Shown here one piece after another: positions 3,193 to 35,278 of a DNA stretch of 64,000 bases; the first letter of the stretch is position 1, and every line of letters starts with the position of its first letter. The DNA comes from Methylocella silvestris BL2 (GTDB lineage Bacteria; Pseudomonadota; Alphaproteobacteria; Rhizobiales; Beijerinckiaceae), in the NCBI RefSeq assembly GCF_000021745.1, contig NC_011666.1:2242501-2306500 (forward strand), in the 5' to 3' direction. The notes under the pieces were generated by a model. That model saw nothing but the letters and a program-made list of their open reading frames with translations, was not told the origin of the DNA and did not search any database. Position numbers and translations under genes: made by a program.

Positions 3193-3668
3193 TGGGCATG
3201 TCACGGACCTCGTTCGATCGCGCCGCGTTCAAAGCCGAGGTCGAGCGCTTTCGCGCGCTCGGCCTCGAGGCGTTGCGACAGGAATGGCGCCGCCTCTGGC
3301 GCAGCGAGCCGCCGCAAATCAGCCGCGACCTGTTCGTTCTGGCGCTCGGCTACAGGATCCAGGAAATCGAGCATGGCGGGCTTGGTCAAGCGGCCCGGCG
3401 CAGGCTTCAAACGCTTGGCAAGGCCTTGCGTGAGAAAGGTCGAGCGGTTCCGCCGCCAGGCTCGGATCTGAAGCCCGGCTGCCGCCTGATCCGAGAATGG
3501 CATGGCCGCAGCCATAGCGTCACCGTGCTGGAAGATGGATTCGAATACGATGGCGAGACCTATCCCTCGCTGACCCAGATCGCCAAGAAGATCACCTCAG
3601 CGCATTGGTCCGGCCCGCGCTTCTTCGGCTTGCTGCCGGCGAATGGCGACGGAGGGCCACATGCGTGA
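3192..3668 (+). CDS. DUF2924 domain protein
   Basis: A 158-aa protein of the DUF2924 family, recognised by RALGLEALRQEWRRLW, ISRDLFVLALGYRIQE and the C-terminal SLTQIAKKITSAHWSGPRFF. The family almost always sits directly upstream of a large serine recombinase in Rhizobiales and may assist it, though no biochemical role is established. GTG 3189, ATG 3192 and ATG 3198 are all in frame; 3192 overlaps the DUF3489 stop by one base. The 3' end overlaps the recombinase start (ATGCGTGA). It appears intact while the recombinase behind it is broken. Confidence 0.8.
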   Translation: MGMSRTSFDRAAFKAEVERFRALGLEALRQEWRRLWRSEPPQISRDLFVLALGYRIQEIEHGGLGQAARRRLQTLGKALREKGRAVPPPGSDLKPGCRLIREWHGRSHSVTVLEDGFEYDGETYPSLTQIAKKITSAHWSGPRFFGLLPANGDGGPHA

Positions 3669-22172: not shown

Positions 22173-23171
22173 ATGCCAGATTCAAAGCACAAGATCCTTT
22201 TCGCCGCCAAGCTCCTTCTCGCCGCGTCTGCGATCGCAGCCTCGGCTCCGGCGCGGGCGGATGATGCGGACGTCCCGACCGCCATCGTCGATGTGATGAA
22301 CAAATTATTCGGCGTTCATCCGGGATTTCGCGCCAATCACGCCAAGGGCGCCGTCGCAGAGGGAAGCTTCACCGCCTCTCCGGAAGCCGCCCAGTTGAGC
22401 CGGGCGGCGATTTTTTCAGGCGAGAAGATCCCCGTCGTCGTGCGCTTTTCCGACGCCACGGGCGTTCCCACGATCCCGGATGGCGATCCGAACGCCAATC
22501 CACACGGCCTCTCCGTCAAATTCCATCTGCCGGATGGCGGCGAAACCGACATGGTGACGAATTCGCTGCATTTTTTCCCTGTGGCGACCGGAGAGGAGTT
22601 TCTACAGCTTCTGACGGCGATCTCGCAGAGCCCGAAGGATGGGCCGCATCCGTCGCCGTTCGAAAAATTCGTCGCGGCCCATCCGACCGTGCCGGCGGCC
22701 TTTGCGACGATCCACACGCCGGACAGTTTCGCTCATGAAGAATATTATGGAATCAACGCATTCCTGTTGGTGAACAAAAGCGGCGCCAAGCAGGCGGTGC
22801 GGTATCAGTTCATCCCGGACAAAACGGTGCATCTCAGCCCGGAAGACGCGGCCGGCAAGCCAGCGGATTTTCTTGTCGACGATATTGCCGCGCGCCTAAA
22901 GGCGGCCCCCGTGACTTTTCATCTGAAGGCGCAGATCGCCGCCGCCGGCGATGACGTGAAAGACGGGTCGAAGCCGTGGCCAGATGACCGCAAACTGGTC
23001 GAACTCGGCGTGCTGACGATCGACAAGGCCAGCGCAAATTCGCTCGAAGCGCAAAAGCAGCTTCTCTTCCTGCCCGGCGCCCTGATCGACGGCATCGAAC
23101 AGTCGAGCGACCCCCTGGTCGACACCCGCGACGGCGCCTATGCGGTCTCCTTCTCGCGCCGCAATCCATAG
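22173..23171 (+). CDS. Catalase-related peroxidase, periplasmic
   Basis: A 332-aa heme protein of the catalase superfamily, shorter than the ~480 aa of true catalases and belonging to the catalase-related peroxidase (SrpA-like) group. A signal peptide (LLLAASAIAASAPARA) directs export. Conserved elements are GFRANHAKGAVAEGSF (distal His), VVRFSDATGVPTIPDGDPNA, NPHGLSVKF, NSLHFFPVATGEEF and the proximal region RYQFIPD. The frame opens at 22122, but ATG 22173 has GGGAAG upstream and starts the signal peptide. Its likely role is removal of peroxides in the periplasm, with weak or no true catalase activity. Confidence 0.87.
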   Translation: MPDSKHKILFAAKLLLAASAIAASAPARADDADVPTAIVDVMNKLFGVHPGFRANHAKGAVAEGSFTASPEAAQLSRAAIFSGEKIPVVVRFSDATGVPTIPDGDPNANPHGLSVKFHLPDGGETDMVTNSLHFFPVATGEEFLQLLTAISQSPKDGPHPSPFEKFVAAHPTVPAAFATIHTPDSFAHEEYYGINAFLLVNKSGAKQAVRYQFIPDKTVHLSPEDAAGKPADFLVDDIAARLKAAPVTFHLKAQIAAAGDDVKDGSKPWPDDRKLVELGVLTIDKASANSLEAQKQLLFLPGALIDGIEQSSDPLVDTRDGAYAVSFSRRNP

Positions 23172-23343
23172 GAGGCGACCGTTTGAAAACGCTGCGCGCC
23201 TCAGCCTGAGCGAGGCGTACGGCGCCTATCGCGAAGGATCGGTTCGGGCGCAACAGGAGGCGACAACGACGCTCGTGGTTCGGGACGGGCTCTTCGAGCC
23301 CTCCTCGCCATGAGGGCTTTTGCGCTGGCCGCAGACCGCTCAA

Positions 23344-23832
23344 CTAATCCGGCATACCGACATGCAGCGCGCGGTTGCGGGCGGCGATTTCCTGGCGCAT
23401 TTCCTTGCGCATCTTGCCGGCTTCGAACAGGCGGCGCTCGGTCTCGGATTCGAGCTCCAGCGGCGGGGCGATCCCGGGTTTTCCGTCCGCGCCGAGGGCG
23501 ACCATCGTAAAATAGCAAGAGATGTTATGACGCTTGTCCTTTGTCGTGAGGCTCTCGGCGGTCACCTTGATGCCGACCTCCATCGAGGTCCTACCGACGT
23601 AATTAACATTGGCGCTGAAGGTCACCAGCTCGCCGACCTTGATCGGCACTTTGAAAATCACCTGGTCGAGCGAAACGGTCACGACATAGGACTTGCTGTA
23701 TCGGGCGGCGCAGGCGTAGGCGACCTGATCGAGCAGCTTTAAAATGGCGCCGCCATGGACATGGCCGGAAAAATTGGCCATGTCGGGCGTCATCAGAACC
23801 GTCATGTAAAGGGACTTTTCTTGCTTGCTCAT
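23344..23832 (-). CDS. Hotdog-fold acyl-CoA thioesterase (YciA-like)
   Basis: A 162-aa single-hotdog thioesterase. The helix motif NFSGHVHGGAILKLLDQVAY carries the catalytic Asp/His environment of the YciA/BACH group, and RYSKSYVVTVSLDQVIFKVP with VGRTSMEVGIKV forms the sheet. It hydrolyses short- to medium-chain acyl-CoAs in the cytoplasm. It is divergent from the truncated HAD start at 23969. Substrate chain length cannot be read from sequence. Confidence 0.88.
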   Translation of the reverse strand: MSKQEKSLYMTVLMTPDMANFSGHVHGGAILKLLDQVAYACAARYSKSYVVTVSLDQVIFKVPIKVGELVTFSANVNYVGRTSMEVGIKVTAESLTTKDKRHNISCYFTMVALGADGKPGIAPPLELESETERRLFEAGKMRKEMRQEIAARNRALHVGMPD

Positions 23833-23968
23833 GATCTGTGGCCGCCGTCCGCGCGAAAAGCGCCGGCGGAGGATGACACAGACCGGGCGCGCGCGTCATC
23901 CCGCTCAAGGCCTTCAAAACAATGGAAAAATTTAGCGGCTGCTTAGTTTTGTTTTGCGGGATGGCGCC

Positions 23969-24025
23969 TTGAAACTCATCATCTTCGACATTGACGGCAC
24001 CCTGGTCGACAGCCAGGCGTTTTAG
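23969..24025 (+). pseudogene. 5' remnant of the HAD-phosphatase gene at the island left end
   Basis: A TTG-started frame of 18 codons encodes LKLIIFDIDGTLVDSQAF and then hits TAG. It is nearly identical to the first codons of the intact HAD gene at 33759 (KLVIFDIDGTLVDSQAF). The upstream sequence (GCGGGATGGCGCC) is GC-rich and host-like and contains a GGGATGG that could be its ribosome binding site. So this is the original gene start, cut off when the island inserted. The nucleophile motif DxDGT is present but the rest of the enzyme is missing. Confidence 0.85.
23971..24021. repeat. Left attachment-site direct repeat (attL)
   Basis: This 51-bp segment matches 33761-33811 at 47 positions; the longest exact blocks are 17 and 14 bp. 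The two copies flank the AT-rich island, and the integrase gene begins 167 bp inside this copy. The match breaks at the base after GGCGTT, where island sequence begins. The exact crossover cannot be placed within the repeat by eye. Confidence 0.75.
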
Positions 24026-24187
24026 CGAGACAATCTAAGAAACACCTGGACGGACTTTACGTTCATTCAATTGAATTATATCGCTAATTTGAGTTTTGTC
24101 CACGACGGTCAATGACGTTCATTTACTGCTTTAGACACATACTTTTCATTACCCCAAATATACCCTGATCGCCTAGTGAGGTCGCGT

Positions 24188-25390
24188 ATGGCGAAGAATT
24201 TGACCATAAAGGGAATTGCAGCGCTAAAGCCCCAGGCGAAGAGATGCGAGGTGCCGGATGGCCATACGCGTGGCCTTTATTTCGTTGTTCAGCCAAGTGG
24301 CGCGAAATCGTGGGCATATCGCTTCAGCTTCGAGGGAAAGCCAAAAAAGCTTACGATTGGTTCTTATCCTGCAATCGATCTCTCGCGGGCCCGCTCCATT
24401 GCCTTGGCCTCTGCCACGAAGGTGGCGAATGGACGTAACCCTGCAGCCGAAAAGAAAGTGGAGAGAGAGAAGGCGCGAAAGCCCAGCGACCTCGATTTGG
24501 TCGACGTTGTAGTTGCTCAGTTTGTCGTCAAACACGTCGAACCGAAAACTCGCCCTCAATCCGCTAAAGAGATGAAGCGCATCCTTAAGCGTGAAATTTT
24601 ATCGCGCTGGAGCGGGAGGCGCCTTACGGAAATCACCCGCAGTGACATCCGCGATTTGCTTGAAGCGATTGCTGACCGAGCTCCAATTATGGCTAATCGA
24701 GTTTTCGAAGTGATTTCCAGCCTGATCAACTGGTCCATCAGTATGGAGATGCTTTCCGCCTCCCCAATCGCGGGACTTAGAAAACCGTCTCCCGCCAAAC
24801 GACGAGATCGAATTTTGTCAGAGAAGGAATTGACGGATGTTTGGCAAGCGAGTGAGCGAGCGGGGTGGCCGTACGGCTCCATGATCAAAGTGCTGATCTT
24901 GTCCGGTCAAAGGCGCTCGGAGGTCTCGGACATGACCTGGTCGGAGATCGATTTCGAAGAACGTTCTTGGACCCTGCCAGCGGTTCGGACGAAAAACGGC
25001 AAGGGACACATCATTCCGTTAAGCCCAACGATTATTGATGTCTTACTGACCCTTCCACGGATAGGAAGCGAAAGTGGCTTTGTCTTCACCACTAACGGAT
25101 TTTCCCCGATAAGGAATTTTGCGAGACGCAAGAAAGCGTTGATGATGAGTTGTCAATCCGAGAATAACTGGACGCTTCATGACCTACGACGCACCTTCGC
25201 GACGGGCATGGCCCGATTAAAGGTAGAGCTTCCCGTCGTCGAAAAACTGCTTAATCATTCAAGCGGCACTTTTGGCGGAGTTCAGGGCGTTTATCAGCAA
25301 TATGACTTTCAATCAGAAAAAAGGGAGGCAATGAATCTTTGGGCATCGTATGTTAATAAAATAACCAACAAGTTAGATACAATTAAATAA
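24188..25390 (+). CDS. Tyrosine integrase, P4 type (DUF4102 N-terminal domain)
   Basis: A 400-aa site-specific recombinase, likely responsible for inserting the island. The N-terminal arm-binding domain is DUF4102-like (GLYFVVQPSGAKSWAYRF, KLTIGSYPAIDLSRAR). The catalytic domain shows Arg in ILSGQRRSEV, HDLRRTFATGM, LLNHSSG and the nucleophile Tyr in VYQQYDF. The ATG at 24188 has GAGGT six bases upstream. It lies next to attL and reads into the island. Most relatives target tRNA 3' ends; here the target appears to be the 5' end of a protein gene. GC content is clearly lower than in the flanking core genes. Confidence 0.93.
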   Translation: MAKNLTIKGIAALKPQAKRCEVPDGHTRGLYFVVQPSGAKSWAYRFSFEGKPKKLTIGSYPAIDLSRARSIALASATKVANGRNPAAEKKVEREKARKPSDLDLVDVVVAQFVVKHVEPKTRPQSAKEMKRILKREILSRWSGRRLTEITRSDIRDLLEAIADRAPIMANRVFEVISSLINWSISMEMLSASPIAGLRKPSPAKRRDRILSEKELTDVWQASERAGWPYGSMIKVLILSGQRRSEVSDMTWSEIDFEERSWTLPAVRTKNGKGHIIPLSPTIIDVLLTLPRIGSESGFVFTTNGFSPIRNFARRKKALMMSCQSENNWTLHDLRRTFATGMARLKVELPVVEKLLNHSSGTFGGVQGVYQQYDFQSEKREAMNLWASYVNKITNKLDTIK

Positions 25391-25752
25391 CCTTATTGTG
25401 TATTTTTAATCTTAGTCTAATTACAGTATATACATACAATAATTTACATTATACTTCTTACTTACATTACATTACATTATATTTGTTTTTACATGGCGTC
25501 GCTTAAACAACAGCATTCGATTTGACTGCCAGTTTCGCCCTATTTTTAAAAAATTTAATTGGTCCCAATGTCCAATGCAGCGCCCAAGACAATGGAAAAC
25601 AATCACACTATATTTTATAATATCTTTTATTTATTTGACACATTTCGTTTTTTTACAGGTTTTGTGGCTTGTTATTGAGCTGAAAATGGAAAATAAGAAT
25701 ATTAACGTGGCAACGTCGCTACATTACTCTAAATAGAAAAGGGATTTAGGTC
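25391..25752. other. AT-rich non-coding region of the island
   Basis: About 360 bp of strongly AT-rich DNA with no credible gene. It contains three tandem TTACA units at 25462-25479 and several TATA-rich stretches. It could hold the promoter of the AlpA-like gene and excision or replication sites; nothing specific can be assigned. Confidence 0.45.
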
Positions 25753-25962
25753 TTGAACGAGGTTTATTTAATTACAAAACGCATTGTTGCAACTAAGCTC
25801 GGAGTCTGCACGAGAACGATATCACGCCTTTCCGAGAATAAAGCAGAGAACTTCCCGCAGGCAAGGAAGATAAACAATAGATTATACTATATTAGTTCGG
25901 AAATTGAGCAATGGGTGTATGCACGCCCCATTGCCAAGAGTAATAATGATATTCCACGATAA
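25753..25962 (+). CDS. AlpA-like helix-turn-helix regulator / excisionase
   Basis: A 69-aa protein with a MerR/AlpA-type winged helix: LITKRIVATKLGVCTRTISR, then FPQARKINNRLYYISSEIEQW, the usual AlpA pattern of HTH plus a wing ending in E-x-x-W. AlpA proteins activate or serve as directionality factors for P4-type integrases. It starts at TTG 25753 with a purine-rich AAAAGGGAT upstream. It lies 360 bp after the integrase on the same strand. Two other HTH-bearing genes occur on the island, but this one has the classical placement. Confidence 0.72.
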   Translation: MNEVYLITKRIVATKLGVCTRTISRLSENKAENFPQARKINNRLYYISSEIEQWVYARPIAKSNNDIPR

Positions 25963-26225
25963 TCACTTGGTATACCACATTCTGCCGACGATTTAGTAAG
26001 CCGACAGCGTACATGACGTAATATCTCAAACGCCATTTACATAAGTACGCTCGTATCAAATATTTAGTATTTCACTGTACTCGATGATATTCAGCGAGTG
26101 ATAAAGATGCTATGCAAAGATAATTTATTGGACACTTACGTGTATCAATAATGTTAAGCCATGCCTACTACATACTATAATTAAATTATATATACTTACA
26201 TAATATAGATAAAGGACACGTTATC

Positions 26226-26876
26226 GTGCACACTAGTCACAATAAGTTTAACTCAACATTATATGATCGGTCAATTTCAGACATAACGCGATGGTTACTT
26301 ACTGATGTTAAGAGAATTCGTAAACACAATGATGTTCCTTTGATAGTTCCATTGACCGTAACATTCAAGGTCGGATCAATTCAGACATCGCAGTGCCTTG
26401 GACAATTTGAACACTTCTATCATTTAATGTGTCGTAAACTTGTAAACAATATAGACAGGCGGAACAAGCAACATCTATATCCATTAGCAATTGCTTTCGT
26501 CGATAATCCTTCAACGAGATACAAAAGTGACAAGCCAAAATTGTTTGGAACTCATCCCTCCGTTGCTCCACATGTTCATTCAGTTATGATTATCCATCCT
26601 TCAATTAAAAGAAAATTTTTGGAGCGATACCGCGAGTTGGAGGAGTTATGGCAGGATATGAATCCCCGACATGGCACCATTAAGATAAGCGTATCGGAAA
26701 TGTTGTACTATAATCGACTTATTGAGAACTACGCAGGCAATGAAGATGAAATCGAGTCGAAACTAAAAGGATGGATTGGTTATTCGGGCAAGCTTCAAAC
26801 GCGATTTGACCGTCCTGATTGCGATCTTTTTACGATTCTTCCTCCTAGCGGAAAGAATCGTTTCGACCGCTTTTGA
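26226..26876 (+). CDS. Hypothetical island protein with a His-Val-His motif
   Basis: A 216-aa AT-rich gene starting at GTG 26226. I do not recognise the family with confidence. Residues 114-122 (APHVHSVMI) give a His-hydrophobic-His motif in a predicted strand, like motif 2 of HUH rolling-circle replication initiators or the inovirus Gp2 type. LYYNRLIENY at 160-169 supplies tyrosines that might serve as motif 3, though the expected spacing to a Lys is not clear. Its position after integrase and AlpA is where satellite elements often carry a replication gene. Treat the Rep suggestion as weak. Confidence 0.5.
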   Translation: MHTSHNKFNSTLYDRSISDITRWLLTDVKRIRKHNDVPLIVPLTVTFKVGSIQTSQCLGQFEHFYHLMCRKLVNNIDRRNKQHLYPLAIAFVDNPSTRYKSDKPKLFGTHPSVAPHVHSVMIIHPSIKRKFLERYRELEELWQDMNPRHGTIKISVSEMLYYNRLIENYAGNEDEIESKLKGWIGYSGKLQTRFDRPDCDLFTILPPSGKNRFDRF

Positions 26877-27029
26877 GCCTCGAACACGATGCTCGTTATG
26901 AGCCGAAAGCCTGTGCGCCTGACAAATGAGCCCAGAAGCCGTAGTATTACTGCTTCTAGCCTAGATGTTAGCGTCCGACACGCGGCTCTCAAACAATATT
27001 GTGATGCACATACTGCGACATCACCTAAG

Positions 27030-27857
27030 TTACTCGCCTTTAAGTTGTCCTGGCAAATCTACGGAAATAATCTGACCAGAAATAACATCTTTAATTTCAA
27101 GTTTATATCTTAATCTATTATTCGAAGATTCAAATACCAGTTGATCTACAACTTTCTGGTATTGTTTATCTTCAAAAAATATCTGAATTATAAAAGGTAG
27201 GCTGCCATAACGAGTTTGCTGAGGCGCAAGTGTGAGAGGCGAAAGTAGCAATCGCTCAGATTCATCTACTCCGAGTCTATTTTTTAGAATTTGCGACCCG
27301 AGGTCGTTTTTCCCCAATTTTCTCCGGAATAGATCCTCCCCGCTGCCGTCAAATTCCCACGTGGACCCCGGTAGTGAATCATCAGTGATTACAAGTTTCA
27401 AACGGACGGTTACCGACTTAGTAAGCGACGTATTCGAAATAAATACTCCAGGTACATCGAATAGAGCGCTGTCTTTGGTCGGATCTGGATCCAATCCAGA
27501 ATATCGTGCCCAATTAGGAGTAGAAATAACAGATGTTTTTATTAATTGTATAGTCGGCTTCTCTTTAACTGCCTCTATAGCTTGATTATTGAAATTGTTA
27601 ATAATTCCCATTTGCCCGCCTGTCTGTCCGGATGAATTAAAAGTGGGCGATGTGGACGGAGAAGCATTTGCATCTTGTATTTTCTCTGACGATGGATTCC
27701 ACAGGTATATTAGAATACCTATCCAGATTATTGAACCAGCGACGCTTATCAAGAGTTTGACCAGAGGAGTCTGACTAGGCAAAGCGAGAAAAATTTTGAA
27801 AATTTCCACTGTCTTGTCTTTCTTGGGGCTGCTTACACCCGACGCAGCCGCGGCCAA
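27030..27857 (-). CDS. Hypothetical single-span membrane protein
   Basis: A 275-aa protein starting at TTG 27857 (alternative starts are not obvious). Residues ~1-31 are hydrophilic, ~32-53 form one transmembrane segment (LISVAGSIIWIGILIYLW), then a Ser/Thr/Asn-rich linker (~58-95) leads to a beta-rich C-terminal domain (SVTVRLKLVITDD, YGSLPFIIQIFFED). No known domain is recognised. The topology suggests a short cytoplasmic N terminus and an extracytoplasmic domain. It is on the opposite strand to the integrase and the resolvase. Confidence 0.6.
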   Translation of the reverse strand: MAAAASGVSSPKKDKTVEIFKIFLALPSQTPLVKLLISVAGSIIWIGILIYLWNPSSEKIQDANASPSTSPTFNSSGQTGGQMGIINNFNNQAIEAVKEKPTIQLIKTSVISTPNWARYSGLDPDPTKDSALFDVPGVFISNTSLTKSVTVRLKLVITDDSLPGSTWEFDGSGEDLFRRKLGKNDLGSQILKNRLGVDESERLLLSPLTLAPQQTRYGSLPFIIQIFFEDKQYQKVVDQLVFESSNNRLRYKLEIKDVISGQIISVDLPGQLKGE

Positions 27858-28187
27858 ACGACATCGGTTTCGACTTTGCAGGCTCTCTTTGAAACTGGCG
27901 AAGCTCTTTTTACAGTCCGCCAGCGGGAGTTGCGTGGAGCAACCCTTAGCAACGCCGAGGATAATTAATTGAGCCTAACAAAGCTAAAGCGCAACCAAGA
28001 TGTGTCGTGGGCGATCCGGAAATTCAAAGTCGGTACGGAGCGCAGGAGATCGAGAACTAATCAATAGGCCTTGCCCCAGCGATAGCATCGCCTGGGATCA
28101 AAGGATCGATCACACGCATATATATTGACTTGCGATAGCACCCCGATCACAATGTTCTTGGTCCTAATGATAGGAAAAGGATTTTGA
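27858..28187. other. Region upstream of the resolvase with a gene fragment
   Basis: 330 bp without an intact gene. A plus-strand stretch at 27861-27968 reads coding-like and ends in TAA (…LQALFETGEALFTVRQRE…), possibly the 3' remnant of an unidentified gene. Downstream, TTGACT near 28128 and repeats of CGATAGCA/CGATCAC before the resolvase could be its promoter and res site. The GC content here is higher than on the rest of the island, suggesting a separate acquisition. Confidence 0.4.
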
Positions 28188-28799
28188 ATGATCGTTGGCT
28201 ACGCGAGAACGAGCACAATCGAGCAACAGGCGGGTTTAGAAGCCCAGGTACGGGACTTGAAGGCTGCGGGCGCTGAACGCTTGTTTCAGGAACAGACAAG
28301 CTCTGTGGGACCTCGCAAGGAGTTGGAAGATGCGTTGGGATTTCTTAGAGAAGGCGATGTCCTGATTGTCACCAAGCTCGATCGCTTGGCTCGGTCCGTG
28401 GCCAATCTCGGGGATATCGTGGGGAAGCTCGAAAACAAGGGCGTATCGCTGCGAATCATCGGGTTGGGATTGGACACGTCGACCCCTACTGGCAAGCTCA
28501 TGCTGAATCTCTTGGGCTCAATTGCTCAATTCGAGCGAGAGATCATGCTTGAGCGGCAAAGGGAGGGTATCGCGAAAGCCAAGACTGCTGGAAAATACCT
28601 CGGTCGAAAGCCAACAGCTAAAGCCAAGACGGCGGAAGTTGTCCGGTTAGACGCACAAGGTCACACCAGAGAAGCGATAGCCAGTCAGCTCGGGATAGGC
28701 GTGGCCAGCGTCTACCGGATCCTACAGGCCGTGCGTTTGCCCAAGCACGAAAAGATCCAAACAAAAGCCTTAGCAGCAGTAGGATTGGATGCGGGATGA
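28188..28799 (+). CDS. Small serine recombinase (resolvase/invertase family)
   Basis: A 203-aa Tn3-resolvase/Hin-type recombinase. The catalytic N-terminal domain shows YARTSTIEQQ (Ser nucleophile region), VTKLDRLARSVANL and STPTGKLMLNLLGSIAQFER. After the linker helix, the C-terminal HTH is VRLDAQGHTREAIASQLGIGVASVYRIL. AAAGGA lies eight bases before the ATG. Its base composition is closer to the host core than the surrounding island, so it may be a nested insertion. No transposase partner or clear invertible segment is seen next to it. Confidence 0.92.
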   Translation: MIVGYARTSTIEQQAGLEAQVRDLKAAGAERLFQEQTSSVGPRKELEDALGFLREGDVLIVTKLDRLARSVANLGDIVGKLENKGVSLRIIGLGLDTSTPTGKLMLNLLGSIAQFEREIMLERQREGIAKAKTAGKYLGRKPTAKAKTAEVVRLDAQGHTREAIASQLGIGVASVYRILQAVRLPKHEKIQTKALAAVGLDAG

Positions 28800-29109
28800 G
28801 TGAAGAAGCGGGCACTTCACATGGGACCAGACGATAATGAACGAGCTTCTCCGGGCGAATCGATGCCTGTGGAAGCGAAGACCAATGGGAACTCGCCTTC
28901 CAGTTTGTGCGAACACAGTCATCGCGCGCCTTCTGGGTGCGGCCTGTAGGGACGCGTCTCGTACACCAGCACCCGATGCACGCCAATGCGCGAGTATATC
29001 AAATATAGGGGCATCGTTATTTAGATTTTAATGGTGGGTCAGATAAATATCTACCGCGTCGGTCGGTCCTCGAAAACCCGTCGGTTTGCGCACGCAGAAT
29101 TTAAAATCT
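28800..29109. other. Intergenic region after the resolvase
   Basis: 310 bp between the resolvase and the convergent lipoprotein gene. A 42-codon open frame begins at ATG 28820 but has no recognisable product. I see no inverted terminal repeat that would define a transposon border here. Confidence 0.35.
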
Positions 29110-30207
29110 TTATTCGTTTGAGAGCATTATGCATCCGGTATCTGTTCCAAACATCACACGCGTTTGGTCTGCGGAGATGCTGCGGACCGCCCCGCCCCAT
29201 TCATTCTGAAGACCTCCATCATCAAAATTAAGAAGCGGCGCAGACTTTCGATCGGAAAACTTGAGATCGATAGAACGCCCGTTGATATTGACCGCTCCAA
29301 TAACATGTATAGGCATATAAAGAGAGACCCCCTTTTCTTTTACATCTTGAACTGGAAGCTCTGCGGAAAGGTAGCAGTCGCCCTCCCCCGAGTTTTCTAT
29401 TTGACCATTATTGATAAATGTGTCGCCGCGATTGCATCCATCACCGTCAACATGAAAAATATTCATAACATCGGATTTTTTTATTACCCCATCATGTTGT
29501 ATAACTACATGATTTCGAAGGGCATCAAATTCTCCCAAAAGAGTTTGTGCCTCGCCACTCGAAGGTGGTTGAAGACAATCACCAGACGCAAAATCATCTA
29601 CGCAAGCGATGCGACAATTTGGCGCCCCGGCCAAGAAAGCAATTCTTCGTATGATACTAGGTGAGGCGTCTGCCCGTAATGTTTTAGGTCCCAGCGGTGC
29701 ATGCGTCGGCAACATTTCGTTTTGAACGTTTTTGGGATAGGAAATAAGCGCATTCAACGCCCTATTGTCACGGGAATTAAGCAACGAAACGCCCTCACAG
29801 GCGCCGCCTTGGATGTACTCAGCGCGACCAGGCCAATAGCGCCCTTCTACAATGGTCCCAGCGCAATTATGGCATGGATCGTCGACCGCAGCTAACGACG
29901 CAAGTACATTTTGCTTAGACGCCGGGCACGAATTTCCCCAGCCGGTAACGTCGCACTGCGAACCGTCGTTACAGAAATATCGCCGGACGACATAGTAAGT
30001 CCCGCCGACCGGAGGCTGAGAGCTCGTTGGCTTCGACACCTGCATGCAGCCACAATCAGCGGAACCGTGAACCCACCCCGGACCGCAATCATTATGACAC
30101 AGCCCAAGTATCCCGCAACCGCTAAGCAAGCTAGCGATTGCCGCGCAGACGCCAGCCTCTAAAAGCATCAATGAGCGCTGTCTCCCGGTTTTACTCACGG
30201 AGCTCAC
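29110..30207 (-). CDS. Cys-rich lipoprotein of unknown function
   Basis: A 365-aa protein with a lipoprotein signal peptide: hydrophobic LMLLEAGVCAAIASLLSGC with lipobox LSGC near residue 31. The following region is Cys-rich (LCHNDCGPGW, GCMQVS, RYFCNDGSQCDVTGWGNSCP, DDPCHNCAGTIVEGRYWPG). The C-terminal half looks beta-rich and lacks a known domain. It overlaps the upstream LysM-like gene by four bases (30204-30207), so the two are co-translated and probably act together at the envelope. The gene is island-like in composition. Confidence 0.7.
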   Translation of the reverse strand: MSSVSKTGRQRSLMLLEAGVCAAIASLLSGCGILGLCHNDCGPGWVHGSADCGCMQVSKPTSSQPPVGGTYYVVRRYFCNDGSQCDVTGWGNSCPASKQNVLASLAAVDDPCHNCAGTIVEGRYWPGRAEYIQGGACEGVSLLNSRDNRALNALISYPKNVQNEMLPTHAPLGPKTLRADASPSIIRRIAFLAGAPNCRIACVDDFASGDCLQPPSSGEAQTLLGEFDALRNHVVIQHDGVIKKSDVMNIFHVDGDGCNRGDTFINNGQIENSGEGDCYLSAELPVQDVKEKGVSLYMPIHVIGAVNINGRSIDLKFSDRKSAPLLNFDDGGLQNEWGGAVRSISADQTRVMFGTDTGCIMLSNE

Positions 30208-31529
30208 TGGCTAACTCCAAACAACTGCGCTGGGTAAATTCGATCCGGCTTATCGATAAATTTGCGGTTTTGCTTGTAAATTTCGGCTTGGCTTGCGCTC
30301 TCAGCAAAACTCCGTGATATTCCCCAAAGCGAATCTCCATTTTTTACGAGATAATCACTACTTTTCCAAAGCTTATACATCGCAGGAATCACTATTTTCT
30401 GTCCAACTTGCAGGTCGTTTTTTTGTGCAAATGCAATGTCATTCTGTTTCAGCAGCGCCACGAAATAAGTCCCGTCTCCGTACGCAGATTTCGCGGCGGA
30501 CCATAAATTGTCGTGCGTGTTTAGTATCTTCTCGACATCGCCGACATTTGTGCTTCGAAAGTAGGCTCCTAGTTGAGCGAAATAGGGTCTGGCAAATTTG
30601 CAAAACGTATCGTGCTTTATTTTTATCGTGTCGTACGTCACCAGTAGCGCAGGATAATTACGCTCGGGAGACGTTCCAGCACTCGAAACAACGAAGCGGG
30701 TTTCAGTAGGATTTAGAACAAAGCCTTCGACGATTTTTTTAATTCCACCGTTTGGTAAGCGCTGCGCAATTCGTTTGTGGGAAGGTGCCATGATACCTTG
30801 CGGAGAAATACTTCCAAGAGCTGAGGTAATCTCTCCAAGTTTCCCTCTATAAAAGTCAAGTATAAACTTGCTTCCAATATTTAACGTGGAAATCCCAACG
30901 ATGTTTATTATAAGATTTCGAAACGGATTACTTAGATATCCTCGATCATCAAATTGTGGATGAGGAGTTATTGAGATAGTCTGTCCGTCCGCCTCAATTG
31001 CCGCAACTATCGGCACGTCGAGCGTGAACGTAGTCTTATCTATGTCTGTAATTATTCGCTGCTGACAATGATAAAATTTGAAACCCTTCGAGCATATCCA
31101 GTCAAAAACTGCACATGCCCGTATCGTGACATTAATGTCAACATGCGCAAACAAGCTGCCATCCGGACGAGGATATAGATCGAAAGGAGGAACATGTAGG
31201 CTCGCATTGCATGTTTCATTTGCCATTATTTCAGCAACTATTTTGCTTTTAATCCACGAAACGGGTTCTGAAATCTCGTTCAGTATAAGTTCTCGCGGGG
31301 TTACCTTCTCGTCAAACTTGAACTCGTACCGGATTTGCCGAGTTGGCACGTTTCCAATCGGCGCTACGTATGTATTGAAAGTCGGATCAAGCTTAGTTAA
31401 ATCGGGGCTATCTATTAACTCGGGACTCAAGCAGTTATCAGATGCTGGATAAGCACTGGCTGAACTTAATAGAAACCCAACAACAAATAAAAAACGTAAA
31501 CGCTCTCTACTTCCTTTTGAAGCTTTCAT
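30204..31529 (-). CDS. Secreted protein with C-terminal LysM-like repeats
   Basis: A 441-aa exported protein. The signal peptide is FLFVVGFLLSSASAYPA (cleavage near residue 30). A long unrecognised central region is followed by two LysM-like repeats: one around LNTHDNLWSAAKSAYGDG...LQVGQKIVIP and a second at YLVKNGDSLWGISRSFAESA to the end. LysM repeats bind peptidoglycan glycans. The frame is open to 31559, but ATG 31529 avoids overlap with the preceding gene and has CTAGGTG upstream. Together with the lipoproteins on both sides it suggests a wall-associated complex. Confidence 0.72.
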   Translation of the reverse strand: MKASKGSRERLRFLFVVGFLLSSASAYPASDNCLSPELIDSPDLTKLDPTFNTYVAPIGNVPTRQIRYEFKFDEKVTPRELILNEISEPVSWIKSKIVAEIMANETCNASLHVPPFDLYPRPDGSLFAHVDINVTIRACAVFDWICSKGFKFYHCQQRIITDIDKTTFTLDVPIVAAIEADGQTISITPHPQFDDRGYLSNPFRNLIINIVGISTLNIGSKFILDFYRGKLGEITSALGSISPQGIMAPSHKRIAQRLPNGGIKKIVEGFVLNPTETRFVVSSAGTSPERNYPALLVTYDTIKIKHDTFCKFARPYFAQLGAYFRSTNVGDVEKILNTHDNLWSAAKSAYGDGTYFVALLKQNDIAFAQKNDLQVGQKIVIPAMYKLWKSSDYLVKNGDSLWGISRSFAESASQAEIYKQNRKFIDKPDRIYPAQLFGVSQ

Positions 31530-31536
31530 TGAGCAC

Positions 31537-32132
31537 CTAGTCAGGCTCGATTTGACCAAAAAGTGATTTTAGTTCATTCGATTTGCCACTCAACTTTTGC
31601 GTATTCGCATCAATGATCGGGATAGCTCCACGCAGAAATTGCTCGGCCTCCAATATTTGATTGGCAATGACCGTGCTTGGCGGATCGACCGTCGCGTGAC
31701 TAACTAAGCTGGTTCGCGCGTCGGCCAGTGAATTCAACGCCCTTTCGATCGCTGGCGGATCACTCTGTTTTAGCAATACTTGGTAAGCGCTGTTCGTAAG
31801 ATCGGCCCAATCTTCCAAGGCGATATTGCCGCCAAAATTCCGAAGTATAACCGCTATCCCATCGACCTTGGCGGCATCGCGCTGGTTCGCGAGCCTAAAC
31901 GGACAGAGAAGACTTTGCACCTGTTTCCTGAGGTCGGTCTCAGTGCCTGGGTTCGTAAAATATTCGGCATAGACGCCGTCCAAGCCGTCGAACTGGATGC
32001 GTTCGTGCACCTTGATAAGCAGAGCTAGACTTTTGGTATCGATGTTGCTGGGGCATGAACTAAGAGCCTCCGAACATCCGCAAACGATCGCAAAAAAAAA
32101 ATGCGATTTCCACGTCCCATCGGAAATACCAT
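31537..32132 (-). CDS. Probable lipoprotein, signal peptide interrupted by a homopolymer frameshift
   Basis: As sequenced, the longest frame starts at GTG 32010 and gives 157 aa (MHERIQFDGLDGVYAEYF onward). The same frame stays open upstream and encodes a lipobox-like end (AIVCGCSEALSSC). The matching start of the signal peptide (MGRGNRIFFF) lies in another frame, before a run of ten T on the coding strand (32092-32101). One more T would join them into a ~197-aa lipoprotein. The body is helical with Asp/Leu-rich segments and no known domain. It ends 7 bp before the LysM-like gene. A real frameshift, phase variation or sequencing error are all possible. Confidence 0.55.
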
Positions 32133-32609
32133 GGATGCTAGGGTTATTAAGTGTCGATAAAATTTAACTCGATGAAGGTCCAATAGCAATCCATTTTCGG
32201 TGGTGCGTGCGCTTTTTGTCTGCCTGGTCGATGCATGAGGCTTCATGGCGTTAGGACCACCATCGAGCTGACGAACTGAGAGAATATATTTCTAGCAGGC
32301 TGTTGAAAAAGGCTCTGGCCAGGGAAAGGCGGTGTTGATTCAGTCTCCCGGGTGGCTTTGGGGACTGAGCCATGCGGGGCGCAGACGAGCGGTCAGGATC
32401 GCTTTTCGCCTACGCCCATCTTGAAGCTCGGGAACAAGGGCATCATCCATCTAAACATGCAACATTTCCGCTTATTAATTGGGGTTACTAACATCCTCAT
32501 TTCTGCCCCGGAAGTTGAGGAAATCAAACTCCAATTCTTCTATGGGGCGCGACATATCACATGAGGCCTCCCCTTTAGCTAAAGATCACAGCCGTCACTT
32601 CGCATCGCG
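32133..32609. other. Intergenic region containing IS debris
   Basis: Between the lipoprotein gene start and the HTH-module gene. Apart from the IS fragment at 32298-32431, I see only short frames without support. It separates the lipoprotein/LysM operon from the HTH module on the same strand. Confidence 0.4.
32298..32431 (+). mobile_element. IS5-like insertion sequence left-end fragment
   Basis: The sequence GGCTGTTGAAAAA at 32298-32310 resembles a terminal inverted repeat of IS5/IS1182-type elements. It is followed at 32372 by ATG and codons for MRGADERSGSLFAYAHLEAR, similar to the N terminus of such transposases. Homology appears to stop after about 20 codons and no right end is seen, so this is a truncated remnant. 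The family name is from memory of the motif and needs a database search. Confidence 0.5.
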
Positions 32610-32828
32610 TCATGTCATGTTTTTGAAGTGTCCTTGACAAGCTTTCTCCAGCACCATCGATAAATCTTGAAAACGACCCATAGGATAATAAGCTGGATCA
32701 GAAAGAAAGCTGGGAAAATTAACCAACCTAACTGCATTGTTAGATTCCTCTTTAATTAGGAACCAGGCACCGCTCATTCGATCTCCTTTGTTAGCGCGAA
32801 GAACTGTAGGTATGCAGCTCTCATTCAT
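32610..32828 (-). CDS. Small hypothetical protein downstream of the HTH gene
   Basis: A 72-aa protein of unknown family. The central stretch NAVRLVNFPSFLSDPAYYPMGRF is hydrophobic-aromatic but not a membrane span. Its start overlaps the stop of the 217-aa gene by four bases (ATGA), so the two form a unit. The arrangement recalls a regulator with a small partner, but there is no toxin or antitoxin motif I can name. Confidence 0.5.
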   Translation of the reverse strand: MNESCIPTVLRANKGDRMSGAWFLIKEESNNAVRLVNFPSFLSDPAYYPMGRFQDLSMVLEKACQGHFKNMT

Positions 32829-33478
32829 CGACGGAGCTTATCGGTACGGATTGACAAGGTAGCTTCGCCTAAACGAAACACCCCTGATAAAATTGCGATT
32901 GCCCTCCCTTCGAGGTCGAAGCGGACCGCTCTGTGCGGCTCGTAGTTAACAACCAACCCGATAGGGCGACCAAAGCACGGGAGCACGCAAGACGGGTTCG
33001 GAAATTCAGCTAGCTTCAGACGAACGCCGTTCAGTCCTTGCTGAACGAAGCTTGCCGGGCCCGAGGCCAGATCAAAATCCACCCGCAAAATGCGATTAAT
33101 CCCAATGAATACGGCAGCAAAAATCGGCTCCGGTATGCTCCGTTCGGTCGCGATTATCGCATGCGGTCTGAAGGCGGCACGCCACGCACTTTCCCGTCGT
33201 GCGGTTTCTTTGCTCCTCGCTTCCTCGATGATTTTTGCCGTTTCAATTACGGCTTCGGCTAATTTCTCTTTTGGGATCTCAAGGGCGAACGGAAGCGCCT
33301 CGATAATGGCTTTCGCCTGCGCAGAGGTTAGATCCCCTCGACAAACCTCATCTATTCGGTCGATCCCTTTGGATAGATTTTCGTAGCCGCATCGTCTCGA
33401 CAGTTCGGTTCGACTGATGCCAAGTTCCCTGACGCCGTTTTGGATAAAAAGATTGATCGGCAGCCACTGGCAGGTCAT
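32825..33478 (-). CDS. Hypothetical protein with N-terminal HTH-like domain
   Basis: A 217-aa protein. Residues ~14-45 (GVRELGISRTELSRRCGY, then ENLSKGIDRIDEVCRGDL) resemble a helix-turn-helix-like domain seen in widespread proteobacterial hypothetical proteins with an R-x-C-G-Y-x-N-x-x-K-G pattern. A helical segment (IPKEKLAEAVIETAKIIEEA) and a beta-rich C-terminal half follow. It is coupled to the 72-aa gene by an ATGA overlap. DNA binding is inferred; no enzymatic motif is visible. Confidence 0.55.
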   Translation of the reverse strand: MTCQWLPINLFIQNGVRELGISRTELSRRCGYENLSKGIDRIDEVCRGDLTSAQAKAIIEALPFALEIPKEKLAEAVIETAKIIEEARSKETARRESAWRAAFRPHAIIATERSIPEPIFAAVFIGINRILRVDFDLASGPASFVQQGLNGVRLKLAEFPNPSCVLPCFGRPIGLVVNYEPHRAVRFDLEGRAIAILSGVFRLGEATLSIRTDKLRR

Positions 33479-33758
33479 TTAGTCACCCTTCTCTGCGCCT
33501 CTACCTTAGGCAGGCAATGCTCCAAATCGCGACCGTTCCACGCATGCCGTCGCTTCCAAGTGCATTCTCAAAGACGGCTCGAAATTGTTTCGCGTCACGC
33601 GCCTTACGTTGCGAAAAAGCCCGCAAAACCATGCTGCCATGTCAATTCCAATTTCGATGGACCAACGGTGAAATGCGAATCGATCATCTCATTACCCTAC
33701 AAGATACCCCAGCATTTATTGCAAAGTATTGTATTTTATTTAACTTATTGATAAGTTT

Positions 33759-34406
33759 GTGAAACTCGTGATCTTCGACATTGACGGGACCCTGGTCGAC
33801 AGTCAGGCGTTCATTCTCGAGGCGCAGCGGCGCGCCTTCGCGGCGCACGCGATGGCAGCGCCAAGCCGCGAGGCGTCGCTCGCGATCGTCGGCCTGTCGC
33901 TGCATGAGGCGTTCAGCGTGCTTGCCGGGCCGGACGGCCCCATCGAAAGCCTGTCCGAGGCCTATCGGGCGGCATGGGCCGAAATTCGCGCCAATCCGGA
34001 TTACGAAGAGCCATTTTATCCCGGCGCGCGCGAGGCGGTCGCGACGCTTGCCGAAAACGCCGGGGTGACGCTCGGCGTCGCCACGGGCAAGGCGCGCCGC
34101 GGCGTCGACCACCTTTTCGCGCGGACGGGATGGGCCGATGTCTTTCGCACCGTTCAGACCTCCGACGATCATCCCTCCAAACCCGCGCCGAACATGATCC
34201 TTGCCGCCCTCGCCGAAATCGGGGCGGGTCCGGCCACAACCCTGATGATTGGCGACACCAGCTTCGACATGGAGATGGCGCGCGCGGCCGGCGTGCGGCC
34301 GATCGGCGTCGCCTGGGGCTACCATGACCGCGCCGCGCTCGAAGCCGCCGGCGCCGAGCGCATTGTTGCGGATTTCGCCGAATTGCTGCATTTCATCGGT
34401 CCATGA
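33759..34406 (+). CDS. HAD-superfamily hydrolase (phosphoglycolate-phosphatase-like)
   Basis: A 215-aa cytoplasmic HAD phosphatase. Motif I FDIDGTLVDS, motif II in VATGKARRG, the Lys in DDHPSKPAPNM and motif IV IGDTSFDMEMA are all present, with a C1 cap between. It starts at GTG 33759. The first codons and everything before them come from the island, since the original TTG start is stranded at 23969. No clear ribosome binding site precedes the new start. It overlaps the ATP12 gene by four bases, a conserved pairing in Rhizobiales. The natural substrate is unknown. Confidence 0.88.
   Translation: MKLVIFDIDGTLVDSQAFILEAQRRAFAAHAMAAPSREASLAIVGLSLHEAFSVLAGPDGPIESLSEAYRAAWAEIRANPDYEEPFYPGAREAVATLAENAGVTLGVATGKARRGVDHLFARTGWADVFRTVQTSDDHPSKPAPNMILAALAEIGAGPATTLMIGDTSFDMEMARAAGVRPIGVAWGYHDRAALEAAGAERIVADFAELLHFIGP
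33761..33811. repeat. Right attachment-site direct repeat (attR)
   Basis: Matches 23971-24021 at 47 of 51 positions. The four differences change Ile to Val in codon 4 (ATC/GTG, two of them) and make silent changes in a Gly and a Ser codon. The repeat therefore preserves the reading frame of the HAD gene. Upstream of it the sequence is AT-rich island DNA; downstream it is GC-rich host DNA. Confidence 0.75.
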
Positions 34407-35278
34407 GTTCCGACGAAAAGCAGCCCGGCAACCCTGCGCGAAAGACCATCCGCGATGATCTGGCGCGGGCGCCCGGCGAAGTCATCGCCATCGATCCGGT
34501 CGAAATGGCGCGGCGGGACCTTAAAAAATCGCTCCCGCGGCGTTTCTACAGCCATGCCGCCGCGGCGCCGTGCGCGTCGTCTGGCGAGGGCGCTTTTGCG
34601 CTGCTGCTGGATGGGCGCCCGGCGCGGACGCCCGCGCGCAATCCGCTCGCCCTGCCGACGCTGGAAGCGGCCGAGGCGATTGCGGCGGAATGGGAGCGCC
34701 AGCAAGAGCTGATCGACCCCGGACAGATGCCGCTGACCCGCATCGCCAATTCGGCGATCGACGGCGTCTCCAATGAGATGGACGCGACGATCGCCGATAT
34801 CGCCCAATTCGGCGGCTCCGATCTCATTTGCTATCGCGCCGGCGAGCCCGAAGCGCTGGCGCTGGCCGAGGCGGCGGCCTGGGATCCCATGCTCAATTTC
34901 GCGCGCGAGAAATTGGGCGCCCGGCTGATCTGCGCGCAAGGCGTCAATTACGTCGAGCAGCCCGAGCCTGCCCGCCGCGCTGTGTTGCAAGCCGTGCGGG
35001 AGATCGCCCGCCCCGAGGCAGGCGGGGCTTTCGCGCTCGCGGCGCTTCACGTCATGACCACACTTACCGGATCGGCGCTCCTCGCGCTCGCCGTGGCGCA
35101 TGGCGCGCTGACGGCCGAAGAAGCCTGGGCGGCGGCCCATGTCGACGAGGATTATCAGATGCAGCTCTGGGGCGCGGATGAAGCCGCCCTCGCCCGCCGC
35201 GCCCGGCGCTGGTCCGAGATGGAAGCCGCGGCGCGGCTGCTTCGCGCAGCGCGGCCGCCGGAATCCGCGCCAGCATGA
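34403..35278 (+). CDS. ATP12 family F1-ATPase assembly chaperone
   Basis: A 291-aa protein of the ATP12 family, which in mitochondria binds the F1 alpha subunit during assembly; bacterial homologues occur in alphaproteobacteria. Recognised by LPRRFYSHAA, the FALLLDGRPARTPARNPLAL block, LAAEWE-like IAAEWERQQELIDPGQMPLT and the C-terminal VDEDYQMQLWGADEAA. It overlaps the HAD gene (ATGA) and is transcribed with it, so island insertion also moved this gene away from its native promoter. Confidence 0.9.
   Translation: MSSDEKQPGNPARKTIRDDLARAPGEVIAIDPVEMARRDLKKSLPRRFYSHAAAAPCASSGEGAFALLLDGRPARTPARNPLALPTLEAAEAIAAEWERQQELIDPGQMPLTRIANSAIDGVSNEMDATIADIAQFGGSDLICYRAGEPEALALAEAAAWDPMLNFAREKLGARLICAQGVNYVEQPEPARRAVLQAVREIARPEAGGAFALAALHVMTTLTGSALLALAVAHGALTAEEAWAAAHVDEDYQMQLWGADEAALARRARRWSEMEAAARLLRAARPPESAPA

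Follow-up and report, generated by a model that had tools for sequence, protein, structure and literature searches.

An island at the start of a HAD phosphatase gene in Methylocella silvestris BL2, and the apparent departure of its integrase lineage from tRNA genes

How does an integrase whose relatives lie at tRNA genes come to occupy the beginning of a protein-coding gene? The question is raised by a 64,000-bp stretch of the Methylocella silvestris BL2 genome (contig NC_011666.1; "the window" hereafter means this whole stretch), in which an AT-rich block ends at the start of a HAD phosphatase gene. With a probability of about 0.88, we hold that this block is a 9,790-bp island put into the HAD start by its own P4/CP4-type integrase, which rebuilt the start, and that the integrase lineage switched from tRNA genes to this target, possibly eased by a repeat that resembles an anticodon arm. 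The features concerned in the first place are the following:

23970 to 24021, plus strand: left attachment (att) copy, the host's former HAD start as far as the crossover (direct repeat; empty-site match)
24188 to 25390, plus strand: P4/CP4-type tyrosine integrase of 400 residues (Pfam, PHROG, PDB); the open reading frame (ORF) is also open from a GTG at 24176
33760 to 33811, plus strand: right att copy, the island-supplied HAD start up to the crossover, then host sequence (direct repeat)
33759 to 34406, plus strand: intact HAD phosphatase gene, the insertion target (Pfam HAD_2, E 2.3e-33)

The block is bounded by a 52-nt direct repeat (23970-24021 and 33760-33811) with 48 identities (92%), the only long direct repeat found. 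Its copies lie 9,790 bp apart, which is the unit length of the island, and mismatch at four positions: 23978, 23980, 23998 and 24013 (left-copy numbering). The left copy runs from TTG to TAG in 18 codons (23969-24025), and the right copy opens the intact 215-residue HAD gene with a GTG start at 33759. Comparison of the HAD gene with the whole single-contig genome of 4.305 Mb gave one other strong match, namely the left copy (52 bp, 92%, E 1.8e-14), the remaining matches being at E 2e-4 or worse. GC content per kb was 0.38-0.54 in the block vs 0.53-0.70, mostly above 0.60, in the rest of the window. The first-pass annotation had already described an AT-rich block, a truncated HAD start of 18 codons to a TAG on the left with the intact gene beginning in the right copy, and a 51-bp repeat with 47 identities; composition and both reading frames bear it out, and its repeat is the present one, shorter by one base.

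A search for the HAD gene at E 1e-30 in 15 genomes of the genus found it in eight, the source genome included. In the nearest relative holding the gene (G400; HAD protein 92% identical), the thioesterase, HAD and ATP12 genes are adjacent in that order, and the HAD start is uninterrupted. Joining the source flanks at 23968/33759 gave an unbroken alignment with G400 of 2,196 columns at 90.4% identity, running through the junction. No similarity to the island was present at E 1e-5 in the 3.6-kb HAD loci (about 1.5 kb on each side) of the seven other genus genomes that have the gene. In addition, 40 of 149 relatives matched the first 78 bases of the HAD gene, and two copies of the start within 10 kb were found in the source genome only. 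An empty relative whose flanks join in an uninterrupted HAD gene is what the first-pass annotation had suggested looking for, and G400 is one; the outcomes that it had named as refuting, a separate truncated copy in an empty relative or a HAD gene always preceded by AT-rich sequence, were not seen. With flanking att repeats, an empty site in a relative and its own integrase beside att, the block is a site-specifically integrated island.

The empty site also distinguishes the two starts. The left copy agrees with the empty site, and the right copy differs from it, at three places: the start codon, 23978 and 23980. Beyond 24021, the right copy alone agrees. The left copy is therefore the host's own HAD start, and the island brought the start codon, the first codons and the upstream DNA now found on the right. 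The right copy reads GTG AAA CTC GTG vs TTG AAA CTC ATC in the left, and within the repeat the protein is changed at residue 4 only, from I to V. A GTG-AAA/AAG-CTN-GTN start also occurs in five of seven relatives (L042-L046), the other two starting with ATG (L041) and TTG (L040). The sequence places the crossover within 23981-24021 and no more finely; a narrower interval, 23981-23997, was dropped, since sites 23998 and 24013 do not decide the matter at the roughly 10% divergence of G400. The island carries its own copy of the HAD start stretch, so that recombination, probably with a crossover within 24006-24012, gives the gene its new start on the right, and what remains of the old one on the left is a remnant of 18 codons.

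In the integrase, Pfam Phage_integrase, Arm-DNA-bind_3 and Phage_int_M all score above their cut-offs, and the frame is intact across all three domains; it also matches PHROG 1 (integrase, E 2e-65) and the arm domain of a CP4-like integrase in the PDB (3jtz, E 4.6e-10). Having both Arm-DNA-bind_3 and a tyrosine recombinase catalytic domain, it is of the P4/CP4 type, and the name P4-type given at first sight holds on the Pfam domains. Matches to it at E 1e-20 were found in 213 of 397 genomes of the order, the source included, the best others being at most 49% identical.

In all eight relatives examined first (L081-L088), a 3' fragment of a tRNA, from the T-arm to the anticodon arm, lies upstream of the integrase. 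Direct repeats together with an intact tRNA on the far side occur in L082 (Arg), L085 (Lys), L087 (Asn), L125 (Lys) and L126 (Thr), and also, in another geometry, in L133 (Thr), whose repeat is the 5' part of the tRNA in opposite orientation. The repeat of L131 resembles a tRNA, but ARAGORN calls none there. No site was assigned for L117, L118, L120, L122-L124, L127-L130, L132, L134 and L136; in L118, L120 and L122-L124 a tRNA-Met stands 2.8-12.1 kb away, yet only 11-12 bp are common to the integrase side. A search of 258 family genomes, 34 of them matching at E 1e-60, gave 17 new loci for examination (L187-L203; integrases up to 51% identical), and a tRNA fragment was recognized in 15 (13 by motif, two by eye), its distance from the integrase gene being that of the first eight, and in two of three class-level loci, with none in L194, L198 and L205. 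The HAD motif was found neither in 29 loci (L007-L035) nor in the 20 just described (17 family, three class).

In a midpoint-rooted tree of 29 integrases, from which L135 was left out for its internal stop, the source integrase falls in a group of 13 rows with 11 tRNA-site members and one without an assigned site (support 85/98). Since the relatives occupy tRNA sites and the tree groups the source integrase with them, tRNA targeting was likely the ancestral state. The repeat of the source island itself sits in the HAD gene and not in a tRNA gene: ARAGORN tRNAs in the window are only at 3377, 5893 and 49097, and Rfam gave no match within 23000-35000. A switch of this lineage from tRNA genes to a protein gene is well supported, and we infer its direction. 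The first-pass remark that the 5' end of a protein gene is a less usual target for a P4-type integrase is right as far as the departure from the relatives' tRNA targeting goes, though such targeting has a precedent in the dusA islands.

A feature shared by the old and the new targets may be the anticodon arm. The repeats of the relatives end in or just past this arm (5-bp stem, 7-nt loop), and the HAD site contains a motif of the same build:

24001 to 24017, no strand assigned: CCTGG-TCGACAG-CCAGG, with 5-bp arms and a 7-bp spacer, anticodon-arm-like, proposed core site of the integrase (from the sequence)

The spacer of the left copy starts 182 bp before the integrase, and the loops of the relatives are at -174 to -216. 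Perfect arms with the anticodon-loop pattern occur in 12 of 106,704 host 17-mers (0.004 expected per repeat), and those with exactly four of the five arms, like the right copy and the empty site, number 118 of 106,704 (0.039 expected per repeat). A T-loop-like TCGA precedes the spacer by 21 bases (by 20 in the aligned relatives), and three of 106,706 host sites combine it with a score at least that of the left copy. Mimicry of one specific tRNA was also considered and rejected: the best identity with the host's own anticodon arms was 11/17 (tRNA-Pro for the left copy, tRNA-Lys for the right copy and the empty site), and since 1,064 of 35,570 host 17-mers reach 11/17 too, no specific tRNA is claimed.

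Several points weigh against our interpretation. The anticodon-arm test was post hoc, devised once the motif had been seen; on the profile alone, p was 0.198 for the left copy, 0.036 for the right and 0.160 for the empty site (6,000 random host segments), and the opposite strand outscores both repeat copies; for profile and arms together, p was 0.041, 0.010 and 0.118 in the same order; other genus members retain two to four of the five arm pairs. As for the tree, the 85/98 support is not starred, the group rests on midpoint rooting, the place of the source integrase inside it is not fixed, and L133, one of the 11 tRNA-labelled members, has its other geometry. Excision and present mobility, finally, are read from sequence and stay putative. 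The weak profile values, the incomplete arms elsewhere in the genus and the ordinary 11/17 identity would all be expected if the switch were real and the motif a chance likeness, the integrase having taken up a conserved protein-coding stretch as dusA integrases do. We give this explanation even odds. The rarity of perfect arms with the loop pattern, that of the score with TCGA, and the position of the motif at the expected distance from the integrase all speak against it. For an easing of the switch by anticodon-arm likeness, the evidence is suggestive.

The insertion also bears on the gene behind HAD:

34403 to 35278, plus strand: next gene, overlapping HAD by 4 bp (ORF; syntenic behind HAD in relatives), which we take to be ATP12-like

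The DNA at the insertion encodes the first HAD residues and catalytic motif I (FDIDGTLVDSQ). Since the two genes overlap by 4 bp, the right end of the island would serve both, and both probably now depend on it for expression. A sigma-70 consensus scan upstream of the new HAD start found no site, which neither proves nor disproves a promoter. A more far-reaching account, in which a tRNA-specific integrase lineage moved because the DNA of the HAD motif (TLVDSQ) resembles an anticodon arm, the island took over the start and promoter of HAD-ATP12, and excision and integration could switch the operon, is speculative and in our view rather doubtful.

For excision, the island has a second candidate gene beside the integrase:

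25753 to 25962, plus strand: small AlpA-like helix-turn-helix (HTH) protein, probable excisionase or regulator (PHROG 66; Pfam below cut-off)

The AlpA-like regulator of the first-pass annotation finds support in PHROG 66, "excisionase and transcriptional regulator" (E 9.1e-6), and less in Pfam, where AlpA and HTH_17 stay below the gathering cut-offs. Integrase and AlpA-like excisionase together would excise the island and restore a single HAD start. The repeat copies differ at four of 52 positions, part of which may predate the insertion, and one host species only carries the island in the genomes searched, as a fixed relic that no longer moves would; with an integrase frame intact over three domains and an AlpA-like gene present, we regard such a relic as possible and somewhat unlikely.

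Some further observations concern the integrase. The sequence GCGAGACA(A/T) at 24026-24035 recurs just inside the integrase-proximal att site in L197, L199 and L202, and may be an arm-binding site of the integrase. A second such integrase, 38% identical over 247 residues, is located at G000:C1:3040601-3041943 (L114, L186). Some 0.6 kb upstream of the part that matched there is a tRNA-like hit, very weak at E 9.5 and under the cut-off; the integrase possibly marks another island at a tRNA site. A scan of genome contigs with the integrase returned three distant integrases (22-27% identical), and phage and plasmid records gave integrases alone, all below 60% identity, the best among the matches listed being 37.9%.

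Nine island ORFs, picked by length and layout, were scanned with Pfam, NCBIfam, PHROG and PADLOC, smaller ORFs lying outside the scan. They comprise the integrase, the weak AlpA-like protein, a serine resolvase, a LysM protein and five proteins without a family:

26226 to 26876, plus strand: orphan with a PHxH motif, possible HUH replication initiator (no Pfam, NCBIfam or PHROG match)
27030 to 27857, minus strand: orphan with a probable membrane anchor, read by eye (no family)
28188 to 28799, plus strand: serine resolvase/invertase (Pfam Resolvase, E 5.4e-39)
29110 to 30207, minus strand: orphan, probable lipoprotein, lipobox by eye (no family)
30204 to 31559, minus strand: probably exported protein with a C-terminal LysM domain (Pfam LysM, E 1.5e-9)
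31537 to 32010, minus strand: orphan ORF preceding the LysM gene, with an uncertain start (no family)
32825 to 33478, minus strand: orphan with homologues in some relatives (six of 199 family genomes, source included)

The PHxH protein matched in three of 248 family genomes, the source included, with P115, H116 and H118 invariant in the three aligned sequences and no sequence match in the PDB; it may start replication of the excised circle. Broken relatives were also seen elsewhere: in L090:6722-10292 (G399 contig C47), about 3 kb separate one of the PHxH protein from a relative of the resolvase (63% over 164 residues), and an integrase 47% identical to that of the island stands about 90 kb away on the same contig, at a tRNA fragment. 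For the 32825-33478 protein, a broken relative (71-75% identical) is at G000:C1:521321-521753 (L113:9825-10254), immediately upstream of a gene that, judged by eye, is methanol-dehydrogenase-like.

The three minus-strand genes within 29110-32010 seem to encode exported proteins, and they may make up an operon related to the envelope. Homologues of the lipoprotein were absent from 198 other family genomes at E 1e-5, and those of the LysM protein from 248 other order genomes at E 1e-8; the latter has weak partial PHROG matches to endolysin and tail families. Start and frame of the 31537-32010 gene are uncertain because of a run of ten A at 32092-32101, at its start. The sequence GGCTGTTGAAAAAGGC at 32298-32313 presumably resembles an insertion-sequence end.

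Plasmid matches were absent for the PHxH, LysM and 32825-33478 proteins, and a pattern scan of viral contigs was negative for the PHxH and LysM proteins and for the integrase. Among the nine scanned proteins there was no capsid, tail or conjugation gene, and PADLOC found no defence gene apart from a weak match to the HTH region of the resolvase (E 0.0062). Since conjugation, capsid and known defence genes are lacking among these nine, the island appears to be a minimal or satellite-like element that would depend on help for its transfer. The block may be composite, because it holds a serine resolvase and varies in base composition, and both facts would suit a repeat made by segmental duplication, transposition or homologous exchange with the integrase as bystander. 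Such an origin is most improbable: the repeat coincides precisely with the ends of the block, its distance of 219 bp from the start of the integrase is that of the att sites in the relatives, and the empty site closes without loss.

Literature searches, which did not take in the TIGER/Islander database (PMC12424338), where the island may be listed, brought to notice no report of a HAD target or of a tRNA-to-HAD switch. How integrases gain new target genes is a standing question that bears on the choice of integrases for genome insertion. The locus is a mapped example, empty site included, of how an integrase lineage can pass from tRNA genes to a protein gene, and the anticodon-arm-like core offers a concrete, testable cause of the switch.

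Elements of the SXT/R391 type sit in the 5' end of prfC and replace its start; they are large conjugative elements, whereas no conjugation gene was present among the nine proteins scanned here. With the P4/CP4-57-type tRNA islands, the present one shares an Arm-DNA-bind_3 integrase at one end transcribed away from att, an AlpA-like regulator and an intact target at the far end; it differs in that the target is a protein gene and not a tRNA, and in that the 5' end of the target is supplied, the 3' part being supplied there. The island works like the dusA islands and prophages (PMC4482086), which likewise show integrase insertion at the 5' end of a protein gene, an island-supplied 5' end and imperfect flanking repeats. 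In these islands, the 5' end of the target is swapped for island sequence, and putative -10/-35 regions are present both before insertion and after it (PMC4482086). According to PMC10111431, att sites inside genes carry replacement sequence. In contrast to the dusA islands, the target here is HAD, and the examined relatives of the integrase are at tRNA genes. The architecture is already known, the novelty lying in the target and its history.

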